IMG/VR virus record: IMGVR_UViG_3300025030_002229 | Span: 1-22,787 of that record | Source: a virus | Reading direction: 5' to 3' (one strand) | DNA: 22,787 nt | Shown: positions 6,083-21,709 of the stretch, in pieces | Numbering within the stretch: position 1 is the stretch's first letter | Layout of the letters: every line of letters starts with the position of its first letter | The notes under the pieces: model-generated | What the model saw: only the letters and a program-made list of their open reading frames with translations | The model's database searches: none | What the model was told of the DNA's origin: nothing | Position numbers and translations under genes: made by a program

Positions 6083-6267
6083 AAAGTTGGTTAGAATACT
6101 GTAAATCTTGTAATAGAAAACATAGAATGATACAAAGATCATGTCCAACTTGTAATGTATATGAAACTTCACAGCCTAAATCAGATAAAGTCTATGATAA
6201 ATGTGGAGCAAATTATTCTTGTGATGGTTGTGAAGCATATAAAGAACATACTAATCCATATATTTAA
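6079..6267 (+). CDS. Small zinc-finger-like protein
   Basis: This 62-aa protein contains YCKSC (residues 7-11), SCPTC (about 21-25) and a C-terminal KCGANYSCDGC. Four CxxC-type half-sites suggest one or two zinc sites. It is translationally coupled to the upstream gene through an ATGA overlap. Small zinc ribbons of this sort are common in phage accessory regions. The function is unknown. Confidence 0.6.
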   Translation: MKSWLEYCKSCNRKHRMIQRSCPTCNVYETSQPKSDKVYDKCGANYSCDGCEAYKEHTNPYI

Positions 6268-6279
6268 GGAGATAATAGA

Positions 6280-6420
6280 ATGAGAAAATTATTTAGAATT
6301 TTATTAGTAATAATTTTTTCCCCGCTATTTCTTCTATCCTTTATAATTTTTCAGTTTATAGTTGTCCCTCTAATTTTTATATTTAAGGATGAATGGGTTT
6401 GGTTTTGGAGGGATTGGTAA
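6280..6420 (+). CDS. Small membrane protein
   Basis: This 46-aa protein is almost entirely hydrophobic. A basic MRKLFR start is followed by about 30 apolar residues (ILLVIIFSPLFLLSFIIFQF...) and a Trp-rich C-terminus (DEWVWFWRDW). The basic start implies an N-in orientation, with one long or two short membrane segments. A good Shine-Dalgarno (AAGGAG) precedes the ATG. The next gene begins one base after the stop. The role is unknown. Confidence 0.6.
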   Translation: MRKLFRILLVIIFSPLFLLSFIIFQFIVVPLIFIFKDEWVWFWRDW

Positions 6421-14191: not shown

Positions 14192-14901
14192 TAAAAATTT
14201 TTAATCTTATTTAACACCGCATTTAATTCATTATATATTTCATGTTCCCAAATTACTAAACAATCATAACCATATTTTTTATAAGCATCAATTTTTTCTT
14301 GTGGATCATCATTTCTGTGCCAATAATCACCAAATAATTCAATAACTTTATGATCTAATTCATTTAAAAAATCTGGTTTCATATTACCGATTCGGTTGCT
14401 TCCGTTACCTGTAAACTTCCAATTAATAAAATCTTTTTGAAGAAAATTTAATAAATATTTTTCTATTTTATTTGGTGAATTATGATAATTTTTTGCATAA
14501 AAATAATTATTTTTAGTTTTAGACTGTTCCCTTCTTTTATTAATCATATTTAAAGCATTATTTTTATAAATTTCTTTATAAGTTTTTCCTTTTCTCGCTA
14601 AAGATTGTTTTTTATGTAGTTCATTATTATTCAAATTATTATAAATAGCAAAACAATGATGTGAACAAAAAATTCTACTTTTTCTATTTATAATAAAATC
14701 ATTTCCACAATTTGAGCATTTACTTATTTCTTTAAGTTTTGTATGACCTAAATGAGGTTTTCTAAAAATAGTTGAGCATGATTGTGAACAAAATCTGATT
14801 CTTTTAATTTTTGTATAAAAAATTTTATGACATTGAGGACAATTTTTTTCTAGTATATTTAAAGTATTGATAAATTGTCCTTTTTCATTTCTTGCTCTCA
14901 T
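14191..14901 (-). CDS. Free-standing homing endonuclease, Vsr/EDxHD type
   Basis: This 236-aa protein has two N-terminal zinc knuckles (CPQCHKIF ... FCSQSC and CSNCGNDF ... FCSHHC) and a NUMOD3-like segment (GKTYKEIYKNN, about residue 109). The C-terminal Vsr-like nuclease core is KPDF (D177), VIELFGDYWH (E188, D192, H195) and IWEHE (218-221). This arrangement matches EDxHD homing endonucleases that mobilise themselves into related phage genomes. The ATG overlaps the protease stop (ATGA). The stop falls at the joint with the relic protease end, so the gene sits exactly at a duplicated VNQMAVF site. Confidence 0.85.
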   Translation of the reverse strand: MRARNEKGQFINTLNILEKNCPQCHKIFYTKIKRIRFCSQSCSTIFRKPHLGHTKLKEISKCSNCGNDFIINRKSRIFCSHHCFAIYNNLNNNELHKKQSLARKGKTYKEIYKNNALNMINKRREQSKTKNNYFYAKNYHNSPNKIEKYLLNFLQKDFINWKFTGNGSNRIGNMKPDFLNELDHKVIELFGDYWHRNDDPQEKIDAYKKYGYDCLVIWEHEIYNELNAVLNKIKNF

Positions 14902-16523
14902 ATTTTAATCTCTTTAGGATCATATAAGATTGAAAACACAGCCATTTGATTTACTGGGACAGTGCAGAAGGTAATTTCTAGGAGATCTAACTCATCTATT
15001 TCAGTATATGGCATTCCATTTTGCATAGCCTCATGCTTTGCTTTAGAAGATCCTGCAACTGAAAAGCTTCTAATATTTCCTTTTTGTATTTCATCCCAGA
15101 TTTTGTTTGCTAACTCTAAGTCTGTTCTTAATTCACCAACAATTTTCCAACCTAAATCATCAACCTCTGTTTTATATTCTTCACCGGTTTTAGGATCTGT
15201 CCATTTTGGTAATACTCTACCTACGACGGCATCTGAATTATGATATACAATTCCTTTACCAACATAGGTATGATCTATATCAACATCTAAGTTATAAACC
15301 ATTCCAGTATACCAGACTCTTTTTATTTGTTTAATAGAAGTTCCATTTACAAGAGGAATTCTATTTTGTAATTGTTTTTGAAAATATTCTGCCCAATATT
15401 CTCTTTTATAATTAACCTTGCCATTACACACACAGCATAAAGTAATTAAATTTAAATTATCACAATTATTTTTATCATAATCAACATGATGAACATTTAA
15501 TTTATGATGTCTTTTTTCTAATTCTTGACTCTGAGTTCTACCACATAATTGACAAACATGATTATCTCTTAATCGTACAAATTCTTTTTTGTCATTAAAT
15601 TCAAATGGATATGGTAAGGCTGAAATTCCACCTTTCCACATAGAGTTTTTTTCTCCAGCATTACCACCATAATTTGGTCTTTCATGACCATAAGTTTCTT
15701 TCCAAGTTTTTCCTTTTCTTTGTTGTGAGTTATGCTTATCTGTTAAAGTATAATTTTCTCTTGGAACAGCTATTTTTAATATAATTTCTTTTGCTTTCTC
15801 TTCACCATAAATTTCTGAAAGAGTGAGGCCTCTAACCTGATTAGCCCTATTCTTAGGCCCAATATTATTATGATTATAATTTAAGCTCATGTTTTCTTTC
15901 ATTTTTGAAGCTAATACAAATCCATAAATTTCCTCTAAAGTTTTGCCTTTTGTTTTTTCTATCATTTTCTTCCCACCAATTTTTCCAGATTCTGCCATTT
16001 GTTTTGGTGGGCAATGTAATAGAATGTCTGTTTCTAAAAGGTCTTTAGATTTTACCCATCCTCGATCACGAGTTAAAACTTGATGTTCATCAGTAATAAA
16101 TATTTCCTCATCATTAGATAAAATAATTTTATTTAGATCACAATTAATAAAATAAGAAAAAACTTCATTTACTTTTCTTAAAACACCAGTATGTGAATAT
16201 ACTTTATCACCAACTTTTATTTTACTAATTGGAATATACTTATTCCCTTTCTTACAAGCTAAAATCTTAGTATCTGGATCTAAACAATGAAAAATGGTTA
16301 AAATTCTGTACTTATCCTCAGCCATAAATCTTTTTACAGCTTCCTTTAATGCAGGAATAGATATTTTCTGATTCTCTCTATCTATCATTGCTACAGAAGC
16401 GTAGCCGTAAACTATGCGTCTATTTGTTACTTGTGGAATAGAAGATAATATTTGAGAGATTTCACTATTGGAAATATTTCTTTTTTGTATTTCAGATTCT
16501 ACTTTTTCTAATAATTTATCCAT
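14898..16523 (-). CDS. Prohead maturation protease interrupted by an intein
   Basis: The 541-aa precursor should splice to a 191-aa protease (residues 1-79 plus 430-541). The exteins resemble S78/XkdF-type phage prohead serine proteases: RIVYGYASVAMIDRENQKIS, then IFH-SDAVVGRVL with the presumed catalytic His79 at the splice junction. GNIRSFSVAGS carries the likely nucleophile Ser at about 136-138 after splicing. The His-Ser spacing of about 57 is near that of T4 gp21 and HK97 proteases. It would process the scaffold and capsid encoded at 2172-4269. The start follows AGTGTTTAAAA and TATAAT with almost no leader. The C-terminus (SILYDPKEIKI) came with the homing endonuclease. Confidence 0.8.
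   Translation of the reverse strand: MDKLLEKVESEIQKRNISNSEISQILSSIPQVTNRRIVYGYASVAMIDRENQKISIPALKEAVKRFMAEDKYRILTIFHCLDPDTKILACKKGNKYIPISKIKVGDKVYSHTGVLRKVNEVFSYFINCDLNKIILSNDEEIFITDEHQVLTRDRGWVKSKDLLETDILLHCPPKQMAESGKIGGKKMIEKTKGKTLEEIYGFVLASKMKENMSLNYNHNNIGPKNRANQVRGLTLSEIYGEEKAKEIILKIAVPRENYTLTDKHNSQQRKGKTWKETYGHERPNYGGNAGEKNSMWKGGISALPYPFEFNDKKEFVRLRDNHVCQLCGRTQSQELEKRHHKLNVHHVDYDKNNCDNLNLITLCCVCNGKVNYKREYWAEYFQKQLQNRIPLVNGTSIKQIKRVWYTGMVYNLDVDIDHTYVGKGIVYHNSDAVVGRVLPKWTDPKTGEEYKTEVDDLGWKIVGELRTDLELANKIWDEIQKGNIRSFSVAGSSKAKHEAMQNGMPYTEIDELDLLEITFCTVPVNQMAVFSILYDPKEIKI
15237..16286 (-). mobile_element. Intein with HNH endonuclease and NUMOD3-like repeats
   Basis: A 350-aa intein covers precursor residues 80-429. 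It begins CLDPDTKILACKKG (Cys80, block A), has TDEH at 144-147 (block B), and ends VYNLDVDIDHTYVGKGIVYHN before Ser430 (blocks F and G, His-Asn/Ser). Between them are three NUMOD3-like repeats (GKTLEEIYG, GLTLSEIYG, GKTWKETYG). An HNH nuclease follows at about residues 322-371 (HVCQLCG ... LNVHHVDYDKNN ... LCCVCN). All splicing residues are present, so it should be active. It is inserted between the presumed catalytic His and the next residue of the host protein. Confidence 0.9.
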
Positions 16524-18997: not shown

Positions 18998-19252
18998 ATG
19001 AAGACATATAAAGTTAATTGTTATGAAGTTTTTCAAAGCTATGCAACTGGACAATCTATTTTAAAAATATATAAAAATAAACAATTAAAATTAGTATGCT
19101 AAAGACAGGCTAATGAGGGCTGTATAAGTCCTGTAAGTTGTTGTTATATTTGTGGTTTAGGACAAAAGTTTTATTGTGAAGAAAGAAGAAATAATATTTT
19201 TATTCCATACATAAAACTAATTAAATATGCAAAAGACCATAATTATATGTAG
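18998..19252 (+). pseudogene. Cysteine-rich paralog 5, interrupted by in-frame TAA
   Basis: MKTYKVNCYEVFQSYATG runs to KLKLVC-like strand end QLKLVC and then TAA (19100-19102). The frame continues RQANEGCISPVSCCYICGLG and a helical end (NIFIPYIKLIKYAKD) to TAG at 19250. The strand-Cys, CC-x2-C and helix order matches the intact paralogs, so the stop interrupts one gene. It is one transition from CAA. No start codon follows the TAA promptly. As with paralog 2, mutation or read-through are both possible. Confidence 0.55.
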
Positions 19253-19355
19253 TCTCTTATTTTACAGCTCTAGATTTCAATTCTAGTGTTTCTCAGATAT
19301 GGTAGAAGATGAATCAGTAGAAGTATTTTAAGATAGACTAAGGAATCTAAATAAC

Positions 19356-19591: not shown

Positions 19592-19607
19592 TAAAAATGT
19601 ATAAAAC

Positions 19608-19623
19608 TTTTAACTAATATAAT
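19608..19623 (+). promoter_or_regulatory. Phage promoter element, copy 10
   Basis: TTTTAAC-TAA-TATAAT, with the -10 box at 19618-19623 and transcription predicted from about 19630, just before the structured RNA. No TATG follows at the fixed position. Confidence 0.75.
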
Positions 19624-19629
19624 ATATTT

Positions 19630-20033
19630 AGTAGATTAATAATTGAATAGCTTGCTGGTATCTTGCTAATGACCGCCAAACCAGTTAATTAAGTAGACTG
19701 TGAAAAGCCCCGGTTATAGCCAGCAAGCCTGCCCTTTGCCGAACACGGAGAACCTGAAACAAGGATAATCCAATATATAAAAGAAAGGTAGGCAGAGGGC
19801 AGAGCCAGCCACCCTAGAAATAGGGCAGGAGTCTTCATCTAACACTTAGACGCAAGAGATGGTCGTCAAGACTGGTTGGCAGTAAGTCCTGAGCCGGTGG
19901 TGGGGTAAATCCTCAAAGCTAGCAGGCTCAGAGAAGGTAGGTGAGGGTGCTATGTGAGGTGAAAAACCCTCTGATAGTTCATGAGTCCGCTCAGATAGTG
20001 AAACAGGAACTAGCCCTCACCTGCCAGTAAAAT
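19630..20033 (+). ncRNA. Large structured RNA, class unassigned
   Basis: About 400 nt without a coding frame, distinctly GC-richer than its surroundings and dense in perfect helices. GCTTGCTGG/CCAGCAAGC is at 19650-19658 and 19720-19728. A 12-bp stem with one wobble abuts it (19729-19740/19791-19802). CCCTA-GAAA-TAGGG, a GNRA-loop hairpin, is at 19812-19825. AGTCTT/AAGACT stacks on GACG/CGTC (19830-19873). CTGAGCC/GGCTCAG is at 19889-19931. A closing stem, GGTAGGTGAGGG/CCCTCACCTGCC (19936-19947/20014-20025), encloses three further hairpins. Transcription is expected from promoter copy 10. It could be a free ncRNA or the leader of the gene at 20047. Large phage RNAs such as GOLLD and ROOL are comparable in setting, but no match is claimed. 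Confidence 0.75.
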
Positions 20034-20046
20034 AAAGGAGGCCCAT

Positions 20047-20424
20047 ATGGGAATCTATTCTGGCAATCTGGGAGGTAATGAAGAAATGACTGAAGTAGAA
20101 CTGAGAGAGAATATAGCCAAACAACTAGCCATCCAGACATTGGAGGGTGAGTCATTAGCTGGTCGTTATGTGTGGGCTTGGGTAATTAAGAATGATTTTG
20201 TGGATGAATACCTCCAAAAAACCGACCAAATCCTTGCCCTCATCAAAGAGGCTGGCTATCTATCACCAGATAAACATCTCAAGGCTGGCTATGTGAAGCT
20301 GGATGATGTTCTTGCTTTCATTCAGGGTTATATTGATTCACGAAAAGGGCAGAATAAGCCTCTGGCTGAATTGGTAGGACTATCAAGATTACGGAATGTC
20401 CTTAAAGCTAAATTCAGAAAGTAA
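20047..20424 (+). CDS. Unknown 125-aa protein paired with the structured RNA
   Basis: This helical, acidic/amphipathic protein (MGIYSGNLGGNEEMTEVELR...) has no metal motif or membrane segment. The centre reads GRYVWAWVIKNDFVDEYLQ, and the end is basic (RLRNVLKAKFRK). AAAGGAGG at 20035-20042 sets the start; an internal ATG at 20086 is less well placed. Its codons are much GC-richer than those of neighbouring genes, like the RNA before it, which suggests that the two arrived together. It may bind that RNA, but this rests on linkage only. No family is recognised. Confidence 0.7.
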   Translation: MGIYSGNLGGNEEMTEVELRENIAKQLAIQTLEGESLAGRYVWAWVIKNDFVDEYLQKTDQILALIKEAGYLSPDKHLKAGYVKLDDVLAFIQGYIDSRKGQNKPLAELVGLSRLRNVLKAKFRK

Positions 20425-20501: not shown

Positions 20502-20518
20502 TTTTTAACTAATATAAT
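20502..20518 (+). promoter_or_regulatory. Phage promoter element, copy 11
   Basis: TTTTTAAC-TAA-TATAAT, with the -10 box at 20513-20518. A leader of about 38 nt follows, with the strongest Shine-Dalgarno of the block (AAGGAGG) before the ATG at 20563. The gap from 20425 to 20501 holds no gene. Confidence 0.75.
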
Positions 20519-20562
20519 ATTATTATTAGAAAGAATTTAAAAAAGGAGGTAGAAAGCTAAAA

Positions 20563-20688
20563 ATGAGAGTAGCCAGTGCAAAGACATATACCGCTGCTGT
20601 CAAGAAGGCAAAGCCATTCCGTGGCCAAGGCACCCCAGTCGAAATCAAGCAATTAGCCAACGGCACTTACGCAGTTTATAACACTTAA
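20563..20688 (+). CDS. Small basic protein with GC-rich codons
   Basis: This 41-aa protein (MRVASAKTYTAAVKKAKPFR...) ends in a beta-hairpin-like VEIKQLANGTYAVYNT. It has its own promoter (copy 11), AAGGAGG and a strong terminator right behind it, so it is a monocistronic, probably highly expressed unit. Codon use (GCC, GGC, ACC, CGT) contrasts with the AT-rich neighbours and fits either high expression or foreign origin. It could be an inhibitor of a host enzyme or a DNA mimic-type effector, but nothing in the sequence decides. It was too short for simple ORF lists. Confidence 0.65.
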   Translation: MRVASAKTYTAAVKKAKPFRGQGTPVEIKQLANGTYAVYNT

Positions 20689-20717
20689 CTAAGATAAATT
20701 GTAGTAGGTAATAACTT

Positions 20718-20767
20718 ATATAGCTCTATTGATTCTTGTTCCACAGGATTAATAGAGCTATATTTTT
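20718..20767 (+). terminator. Strong intrinsic terminator
   Basis: A perfect 13-bp stem, ATATAGCTCTATT/AATAGAGCTATAT (20718-20730/20751-20763), extends by about 5 further pairs with two wobbles to a 10-nt loop. Five T residues follow. The T-run is also the first part of promoter copy 12, so one transcript ends where the next promoter begins. Confidence 0.85.
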
Positions 20768-20785: not shown

Positions 20786-21370
20786 ATGAAGAATGATGTT
20801 TTCTATCAAATAGATAATACAAAAACAGTACAAGAAACTCTATTAGAAATCTTTAGACAAGGATTTAGGGTAGAAGCCTCAACAATAGTTTTACTTGGAA
20901 ATGATATTAAAAATATAATTGGCCCTGTGAAATTTTTATGTTTCACAGATCATGGCATTCAAGAATACAGCCAATCAAAAAAGTCAATGGGCATCAATTA
21001 TATCTATCTTCAAATTGAAATTCCGGGGACACATTATAGAGATAAAGATCATATAAAGAGGACTTTACACACAGTAAAAAATGGTAATGTTAATGTCTCT
21101 AAGCTTAGAAGACAATATGAAAAATTAAAAATAATCTATGATAAGGCTAAAGAACAAGACGACACAAACAAACAAAATTTTAAAATAAAAGAAGATAAGT
21201 TAAATGAAATGAGGGTTAATTATAATATAAAATATGAAAATAAAGCATACATTAGTATGTCTTATAATACTTTTAATCTTAATTTAAATGACTTATCTGA
21301 AGCAGAAGTAAAAAATATTATGTCTTTTGTTCATAGTCTAAAAGCAAGGAGATTGCAAAAAGATGCTTAA
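20786..21370 (+). CDS. Unknown protein with central coiled coil, leaderless start
   Basis: This 194-aa protein has an alpha/beta N-terminal part to about residue 85 (VQETLLEIFRQGFRVEASTI, VKFLCFTDHGIQEYS, YIYLQIEIPG) and a charged coiled coil at about 100-145 (KLRRQYEKLKIIYDKAKEQD). It ends in a short strand-helix (AYISMSYNTFNLNL, AEVKNIMSFVHSL). It has no catalytic motif or membrane segment. The start lacks a Shine-Dalgarno and sits 6 nt behind the TATAAT of promoter copy 12. It overlaps the next gene by 8 nt. No family is recognised. Confidence 0.65.
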   Translation: MKNDVFYQIDNTKTVQETLLEIFRQGFRVEASTIVLLGNDIKNIIGPVKFLCFTDHGIQEYSQSKKSMGINYIYLQIEIPGTHYRDKDHIKRTLHTVKNGNVNVSKLRRQYEKLKIIYDKAKEQDDTNKQNFKIKEDKLNEMRVNYNIKYENKAYISMSYNTFNLNLNDLSEAEVKNIMSFVHSLKARRLQKDA

Positions 21371-21709
21371 AGAAAAAGCTATTGAGCTATTTAACATATC
21401 AAAAGAAAAAAAGATTTAAAGATTATATCTAATGAAAAAATTGAATCTTTAAGGCAGCAAGGAGATATTATTGTTCAAGACTACAGAATTAAACTTGATG
21501 CTATTGTTTTAAAAGAAGCAGAAGTATCAAATAAGCTCTCTTCTTTACTTCAACAACTAACTCCTCAAGAAATTGTTTTTGAAAATGAAGAAAAACATTA
21601 TATAGCATATTATGATAGAAAGTTTATGGTAACTAGAGTAAAGCAAGTGATGACTGCAAAAGAAGCTGATATACATCTTTCAGTAAAAACAATGTTGGAA
21701 AGTAAATAA
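21363..21709 (+). CDS. Helical protein probably made by -1 frameshifting
   Basis: The zero frame from ATG 21363 encodes MLKEKAIELFNISKEKK and stops at 21417. The -1 frame continues without a stop from 21413 to TAA 21707-21709 (DLKIISNEKIESLRQQGD ... SVKTMLESK) and has no ATG, GTG or TTG start near its beginning. Joining them at A-AAA-AAG gives one coherent protein of about 115 aa with the SVKTMLESK tail shared by neighbours. Alternatives are a one-base error or indel in the A7 run. The fusion is helical with no recognised family. Confidence 0.6.
21407..21452 (+). promoter_or_regulatory. Candidate -1 ribosomal frameshift signal
   Basis: The slippery heptamer A AAA AAG (21407-21413) is in the correct zero-frame phase. 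Two nt later begins a perfect 9-bp inverted repeat, TTAAAGATT (21416-21424)/AATCTTTAA (21444-21452), with a 19-nt loop. The zero-frame UAA (21417-21419) lies in the stem. A AAA AAG is the slippery sequence of E. coli dnaX. The stem is AT-rich and the spacer shorter than usual. Confidence 0.5.

Follow-up and report, generated by a model that had tools for sequence, protein, structure and literature searches.

To our knowledge, few RNA elements reprogram RNA polymerase themselves, examples being put of phage HK022 and the EAR of Bacillus. The latter (eps-associated RNA) is a structured, pseudoknotted RNA that lies inside an operon and promotes read-through. GOLLD, ROOL, OLE and HEARO are large, ornate RNAs of bacteria and phages, and HEARO sits before an ORF. 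The put RNA, about 70 nt long and folded into two stem-loops, suffices for antitermination alone, with no dedicated protein factor (PMC9378689). In lambda nut and in rrn, the boxA sequence recruits NusB and ribosomal protein S10, and RNA polymerase becomes termination-resistant (PMC4807359, PMC12691694). In E. coli, boxA and the Nus factors serve chiefly the folding and maturation of rRNA (PMC4807359), and for this reason a boxA alone is no proof of gene antitermination.

Here we describe a structured RNA in an uncultured phage (IMG/VR record G000, 22,787 nt; this whole stretch of DNA is called the window), which encodes a capsid protein of SU10 type and an S78 prohead protease. The RNA belongs to a family which, like lambda nut and rrn leaders, often has a boxA-like sequence in transcript leaders or between cistrons and which, in three phages, shows the layout promoter, boxA-like motif, first gene, terminator and operon. 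Unlike in these systems, the boxA-like sequence precedes a conserved multi-domain RNA of 150-400 nt; in addition, neither the N protein nor the boxB of lambda nut was recognised, and the new RNA also occurs in mid-operon. As with put, a phage cis RNA is proposed to cause terminator read-through and can sit just behind a promoter, but the window RNA, with about 390 nt and four domains plus an extra hairpin, differs from put in size and shape, and the family is larger, modular, usually headed by a boxA-like leader and without visible sequence relation to put. The EAR is likewise a structured pseudoknot RNA inside an operon, with the read-through that is proposed here, whereas the new RNA has no Rfam match, differs in sequence, domains and size, and is found in phages, with a boxA-like leader. 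Large size is shared with GOLLD, ROOL, OLE and HEARO, and, as with HEARO, the window RNA precedes an ORF; the differences are that no model matches, no HNH ORF is present, domains are lost in a modular way and the RNA lies between genes.

A folded RNA in the window

The initial annotation had described a structured RNA of no known class in a GC-rich island, with 12-bp stems and a GNRA hairpin, preceded by a phage promoter element and followed by a 125-aa ORF of equally atypical composition. Each of these features could be located (Table 1). The element occupies positions 19636-20025 (+), from the boxA-like leader at its 5' edge to the final helix at its 3' edge, ahead of the Shine-Dalgarno sequence, and contains all four domains of the family, with a private hairpin between D1 and D2. 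The 12-bp stems pair 19729-19740 with 19791-19802 and 19936-19947 with 20014-20025, and the GAAA hairpin is at 19812-19825. The minimum free energy of 19630-20050 (421 nt) is -142.3 kcal/mol, as compared to a mean of -115.4 (sd 6.35) for dinucleotide shuffles (z -4.23), none of 100 shuffles folding as well. The GC content is 0.486 in the RNA and 0.413 in the 125-aa ORF, with respect to 0.292 in the whole window.

Table 1. Features of the RNA region in the window and of the early leaders in three related phages.
Feature	Position	Strand	Remarks
Phage promoter-like element TTTTTAACTAWTATAATAT	19607..19625	+	11 copies in total
boxA-like leader TTAATAATTGAATA, 1 mismatch to TTAACAAYWGAATA	19636..19649	+	boxA by similarity only
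D1: P1 GCUUGCUGG/CCAGCAAGC (9 bp) around URUCYUGC, and inner helix	19650..19728	+	
D1b: 12-bp hairpin, unrecognised in other members	19729..19802	+	
D2 core: P3 GCCAGCCA/UGGUUGGC, P4 hairpin CCCUA-GAAA-UAGGG, inner helices	19804..19880	+	R2 match, helix tests
D3: CUGAGCC/GGCUCAG domain, present in about five other members	19889..19931	+	by eye
D4: GGUAGGUGAGGG/CCCUCACCUGCC domain with AUGAGU...CUAGCCC	19936..20025	+	covariation; arms picked by eye
Shine-Dalgarno sequence AAAGGAGG of the following gene	20034..20041	+	
125-aa ORF, passenger	20047..20424	+	no significant Pfam, PHROG or PDB match
Next copy of the promoter-like element	20502..20520	+	
41-aa ORF, 48% GC, possibly of the same transferred island	20563..20688	+	composition
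Strong intrinsic terminator (-22.9 kcal/mol, U run), 3' of the island	20717..20763	+	
Early leaders: promoter, boxA, first gene(s), strong terminator	L262 249-1160, L261 239-1375, L260 381-1260	- strand of loci	

It is near certain that this stretch is a real folded RNA of an uncatalogued family. Rfam 15 gave no gathering-level match for the window RNA, a lax search to E 10 returned chance matches only, and none of its covariance models for GOLLD, ROOL, OLE, HEARO, group I/II introns, tmRNA or RNase P matched; the RNA was also left unmatched at gathering and lax thresholds in L071, L001, 11 member loci and L212, the matches below gathering being due to chance (E 3.7-5.2). BLASTN found nothing real in the INPHARED phages (queries window, L071, L001 and L197) or the PLSDB plasmids (query window), and no description of the family was found in the published literature searched.

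Members of the family

The 125-aa ORF, used as a query, led to two phage contigs, L001 and L002, and BLASTN of the window RNA against them gave a 41-nt match (80%) in an intergenic gap away from the ORF relative. A third member, L071, was found by a pattern scan with GCTTGCTGGTRTCYTGC and has a second block, GTGCCAGCTACCC...AAAGGG, in common with L001. Scanning with GCCAGCTACCCN{1,4}AAAGGG yielded 37 stretches, the majority of which are clear members. The covariance model R1, which describes D2, detected members in 26 of the 28 phage records searched (window included), several of which hold second copies, and scored L071, L185, L200 and L208 at E values of about 1e-9 although they were absent from its training. 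Model R2, built without the window, matched window positions 19802-19882 at E 2.6e-4 (256 kb searched) and found no match in 729 kb of unrelated control phage DNA. Pattern scans and covariance models together place relatives in some 25 uncultured phage records besides that of the window.

The search pattern itself accounts in part for the sequence conservation in the 5' part of D2. P1 (GCUUGCUGG/CCAGCAAG) was not part of the D2 scan, and therefore its near-invariance in the members found via D2 is informative. An exact scan with GGCAGAGGGCAGAGCCAGCC, which lies partly inside the window-specific hairpin, found no member, relaxed P1 scans retrieved only three true members with a remainder of chance matches, and a pattern scan of genome contigs gave two chance matches only. 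No match to the D2 model was obtained in Krumholzibacteriota and 299 Bacillota genomes, a search run without a positive control and therefore uninformative.

Modular anatomy and structure tests

The order of the parts is a boxA-like leader (UUAACAAYWGAAUA), D1, D2, and the optional D3 and D4; D1, D3 and D4 are freely lost across members. D1 consists of P1, URUCYUGC and, in many members, CUAUCGG...GCGAAA...CCGAG, and the window has URUCYUGC and a P1 identical to that of the family. The signature of D2 is GCCAGCUACCC-GAAA-GGG ... GCUACUAGCUGGC; the domain is built of P3 (GCCAGCUA/UAGCUGGC), P4 (CCC-GAAA-GGG), an interior of 31-114 nt and (G)GCUAC. D3 was recognised by eye in the window and about five members. 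About half of the members have D4, with the arms (N)GUGGGGUGAA...AGCCCCAC(N). In one locus (L251, G017 2643, - strand), boxA and D1 are present with a compensatory change in P1 (GCUUGUUGG/CCAACAGG) and no D2 was recognised behind them, so D1 may occur alone. An identical hairpin of UUCG type (CUCCCCUUCGGGGGA), with no U run behind it, is found immediately 3' of D2, before the next element, in L198, L212 and L218.

Covariation of helices across homologs, which the initial annotation had proposed as a check, was detected in the closing helix of D4 (0.515 as compared to 0.120 when shuffled, 0/500), a value biased in favour by the selection of the arms by eye. The signal was destroyed by sliding the partner one to three columns. 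In the window, the D4 arms GTAGGTGAGG/CCTCACCTGC are fully paired, with one G-U. For 23 of 28 members, the four nucleotides that immediately precede the 3' strand of P3 in D2 have an exactly complementary stretch within the interior (P6), as compared to 6.5 with a shuffled body and 16.3 with tails swapped among members (0/500 each). A second helix, P5, joins the segments just inside P4 and just before GCUAC; 9 members have at least four pairs in it, as compared to 2.6 when tails are swapped (0/1000). Since P5 and P6 cross, the natural reading is an H-type pseudoknot in D2. The window departs from the P6 pattern: its tail AAGAC pairs with GUCUU, in a helix which may be nested and not knotted.

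Genomic context

Wherever the neighbours could be called, the RNA lies in sense between co-directional genes, and the next Shine-Dalgarno sequence is often close behind it. In one related group (L001, L197) the gene on its 5' side encodes a protein with the C-terminus ...DENGVYHKVVA, and the gene on its 3' side is similar to those of phage exonucleases. Elsewhere, as read from sequence alone, the downstream genes are scaffold-like (L192, L194) or portal-like (L191), and L071 and L204 have small ORFs downstream. This site would suit a post-transcriptional cis element, perhaps the target of a phage or host protein, that acts on mRNA stability, on RNase processing between cistrons or on translation of the next gene, and the lack of boxA at some loci agrees with it. 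We consider this distinctly unlikely, as the helices do not include the Shine-Dalgarno sequence, the downstream genes are diverse, and boxA at operon starts and terminators behind the RNA would be left unexplained.

Among the approximately 25 other phage records, no conserved protein partner was found beside the RNA. As the downstream genes differ among members, a unit of RNA plus protein, be it like a retron, an omega RNA or a toxin-antitoxin system, is unsupported. Thus, of the transferred two-part unit that had been suggested for the window, the transfer is probable in view of the foreign composition, and the partnership is not upheld, relatives of the RNA preceding unrelated genes. The 125-aa ORF distantly resembles a 150-aa protein of L001 (21 aa at 67%, with the stretch LALIKEAGY), encoded about 3 kb from the RNA in that phage. 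The 125-aa protein is a passenger and not a partner of the RNA.

The element TTTTTAACTAWTATAATAT occurs 11 times in the window, always on the + strand (0.38 expected), and several copies are directly 5' of genes, namely ORFs, a tRNA-Leu and the RNA described here. Since the RNA and the 125-aa ORF have a copy on either side, at 19607 and 20502, they are unlikely to stem from chimeric assembly. The D2 covariance model found no D2 in two relatives of the window phage (the L008 record and L004), and L001 shares 86% DNA identity with the window over 35 nt. The foreign composition, the absence of D2 from these two relatives and the similarity to L001 suggest that RNA and ORF arrived jointly from the early operon of an L001-like phage; the window RNA was probably acquired in this way and would be transcribed from a promoter of the recipient phage. 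A mobile element, such as a degenerate intron or a remnant of a guide-RNA transposon, would also account for foreign composition and for genomic sites that differ among phages; we give it hardly any credence, given that no Rfam intron, HEARO or other match was obtained, no protein is shared and the flanking genes look intact. Elsewhere in the window, the S78-type prohead protease gene (14898-16523, -) is split by an intein with similarity to HNH endonucleases. By eye, we also noted an apparent frameshift at 21364-21460 (+), where a stretch of A residues lies near 21410, and a reading frame at 19001-19290 (+) that is open except for one in-frame TAA, each of which may be a sequencing error or a real interruption.

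The boxA-like leader, promoters and terminators

The leader, which the initial annotation had overlooked, is the best clue to the function of the RNA. Allowing up to 2 mismatches, 14 of about 26 loci have it immediately ahead of the RNA, and about half of the loci are without a recognisable boxA. In the 25 records with the RNA, TTAACAAYWGAATA has about 20 matches at no more than one mismatch; almost all share the strand of the RNA, and most immediately precede it, the others being in operon leaders or intergenic gaps; the reversed motif gave few matches, even at a looser setting of two mismatches. Its low frequency and its association with RNA starts and operon leaders ruled out a general phage promoter. 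The leader of L192 (CTCTTTAACA) agrees at 10 of 11 positions with the published boxA consensus GYTCTTTAANA (PMC5725501); the boxA of Taylorella is TGTTCTTTAACA (PMC2666751). By this sequence similarity the leader is a putative boxA. A comparison of the extended boxA with rRNA operons was negative in the one phylum covered. In L212, a tRNA-like sequence with a long insert (6228-6375, +; 28.1 bits, gathering 29) lies between two boxA-like motifs, directly before the RNA.

Three lambda-like phages (G006, G010 and G020), mutually related and hence not three independent cases, have the order promoter, boxA, first genes, terminator, a run of genes and then the RNA, which has a boxA of its own in two of them. 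A sigma-70 promoter (0-1 mismatch) is followed 64-77 nt later by boxA, and an intrinsic terminator (-16.6 to -21.1 kcal/mol) lies about 0.9-1.1 kb behind the leader and about 6-7 kb before the RNA. The first genes behind the early leaders in L260-L262 include a protein of about 190 aa; no N-like first gene was seen when these proteins were inspected by eye, and a 45-residue segment gave no Pfam match.

Strong terminators are infrequent, with 16 in 244 kb. One is found at most 80 nt behind the RNA in L192, L194 and L204, most loci have none within 400 nt of the RNA, and the only one downstream in the window ends at 20763. In G024, a lone boxA has a terminator directly behind it, and in L204 and L185 a sigma-70 promoter is immediately 5' of the RNA. 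The order promoter, RNA, terminator, gene in L204, and RNA, terminator, gene in L192 and L194, would suit an attenuator or riboswitch, in which sensing of a ligand or protein controls the adjacent terminator. This is most improbable, considering that the terminators are outside the helices of the RNA, that inspection by eye shows no mutually exclusive pairings and that most members lack an adjacent terminator.

Discussion

The similarity of the leader and its context of promoters and terminators point to Nus-factor antitermination. We put at about one half the probability that the element is a cis-acting, multi-domain leader or intercistronic RNA for boxA (Nus-factor) processive antitermination. 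The boxA-like leader on the nascent RNA would be bound by host NusB and S10, D1-D4 would fold co-transcriptionally as a scaffold, RNA polymerase would be converted to, or held in, a termination-resistant form, and the downstream genes would be transcribed through intrinsic or Rho-dependent terminators. From the analysis as a whole we infer that Nus factors may bind the leader and that the RNA may cause terminator read-through. The further-reaching proposal of a hitherto unknown, widespread class of large phage RNAs built of modules, re-used at several sites within one genome, in which boxA loads host Nus factors on a multi-domain scaffold and renders the polymerase termination-resistant with no N-like phage protein, is possible but doubtful.

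The main rival to antitermination is a functional non-coding RNA, released by processing of the operon transcript, that would work in trans or as part of an RNP and for which the role of boxA, as in rRNA, would be limited to helping this RNA to be transcribed and folded. The multi-domain fold, the near-invariant P1 and the pseudoknot are in keeping with such an RNA, as are the promotion of rRNA folding by boxA and the Nus factors (PMC4807359) and the place of the window RNA directly behind a promoter-like element, like a tRNA. We hold it to be somewhat unlikely, because in many members the RNA ends near the ribosome-binding site of the next gene, the domains D1, D3 and D4 come and go freely among members, no signal for processing was seen, and terminators stand directly behind the RNA in three phages.

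On either reading, this is a structured RNA family absent from Rfam 15. If the non-coding RNA were the true explanation, a new class of phage RNA that uses the rRNA transcription machinery would have been found. If the RNA acts in antitermination, a modular phage family of 150-400 nt that frequently starts with boxA would bring RNA-guided antitermination to a set of uncultured phages, and would supply many natural variants for studies of structure and mechanism.
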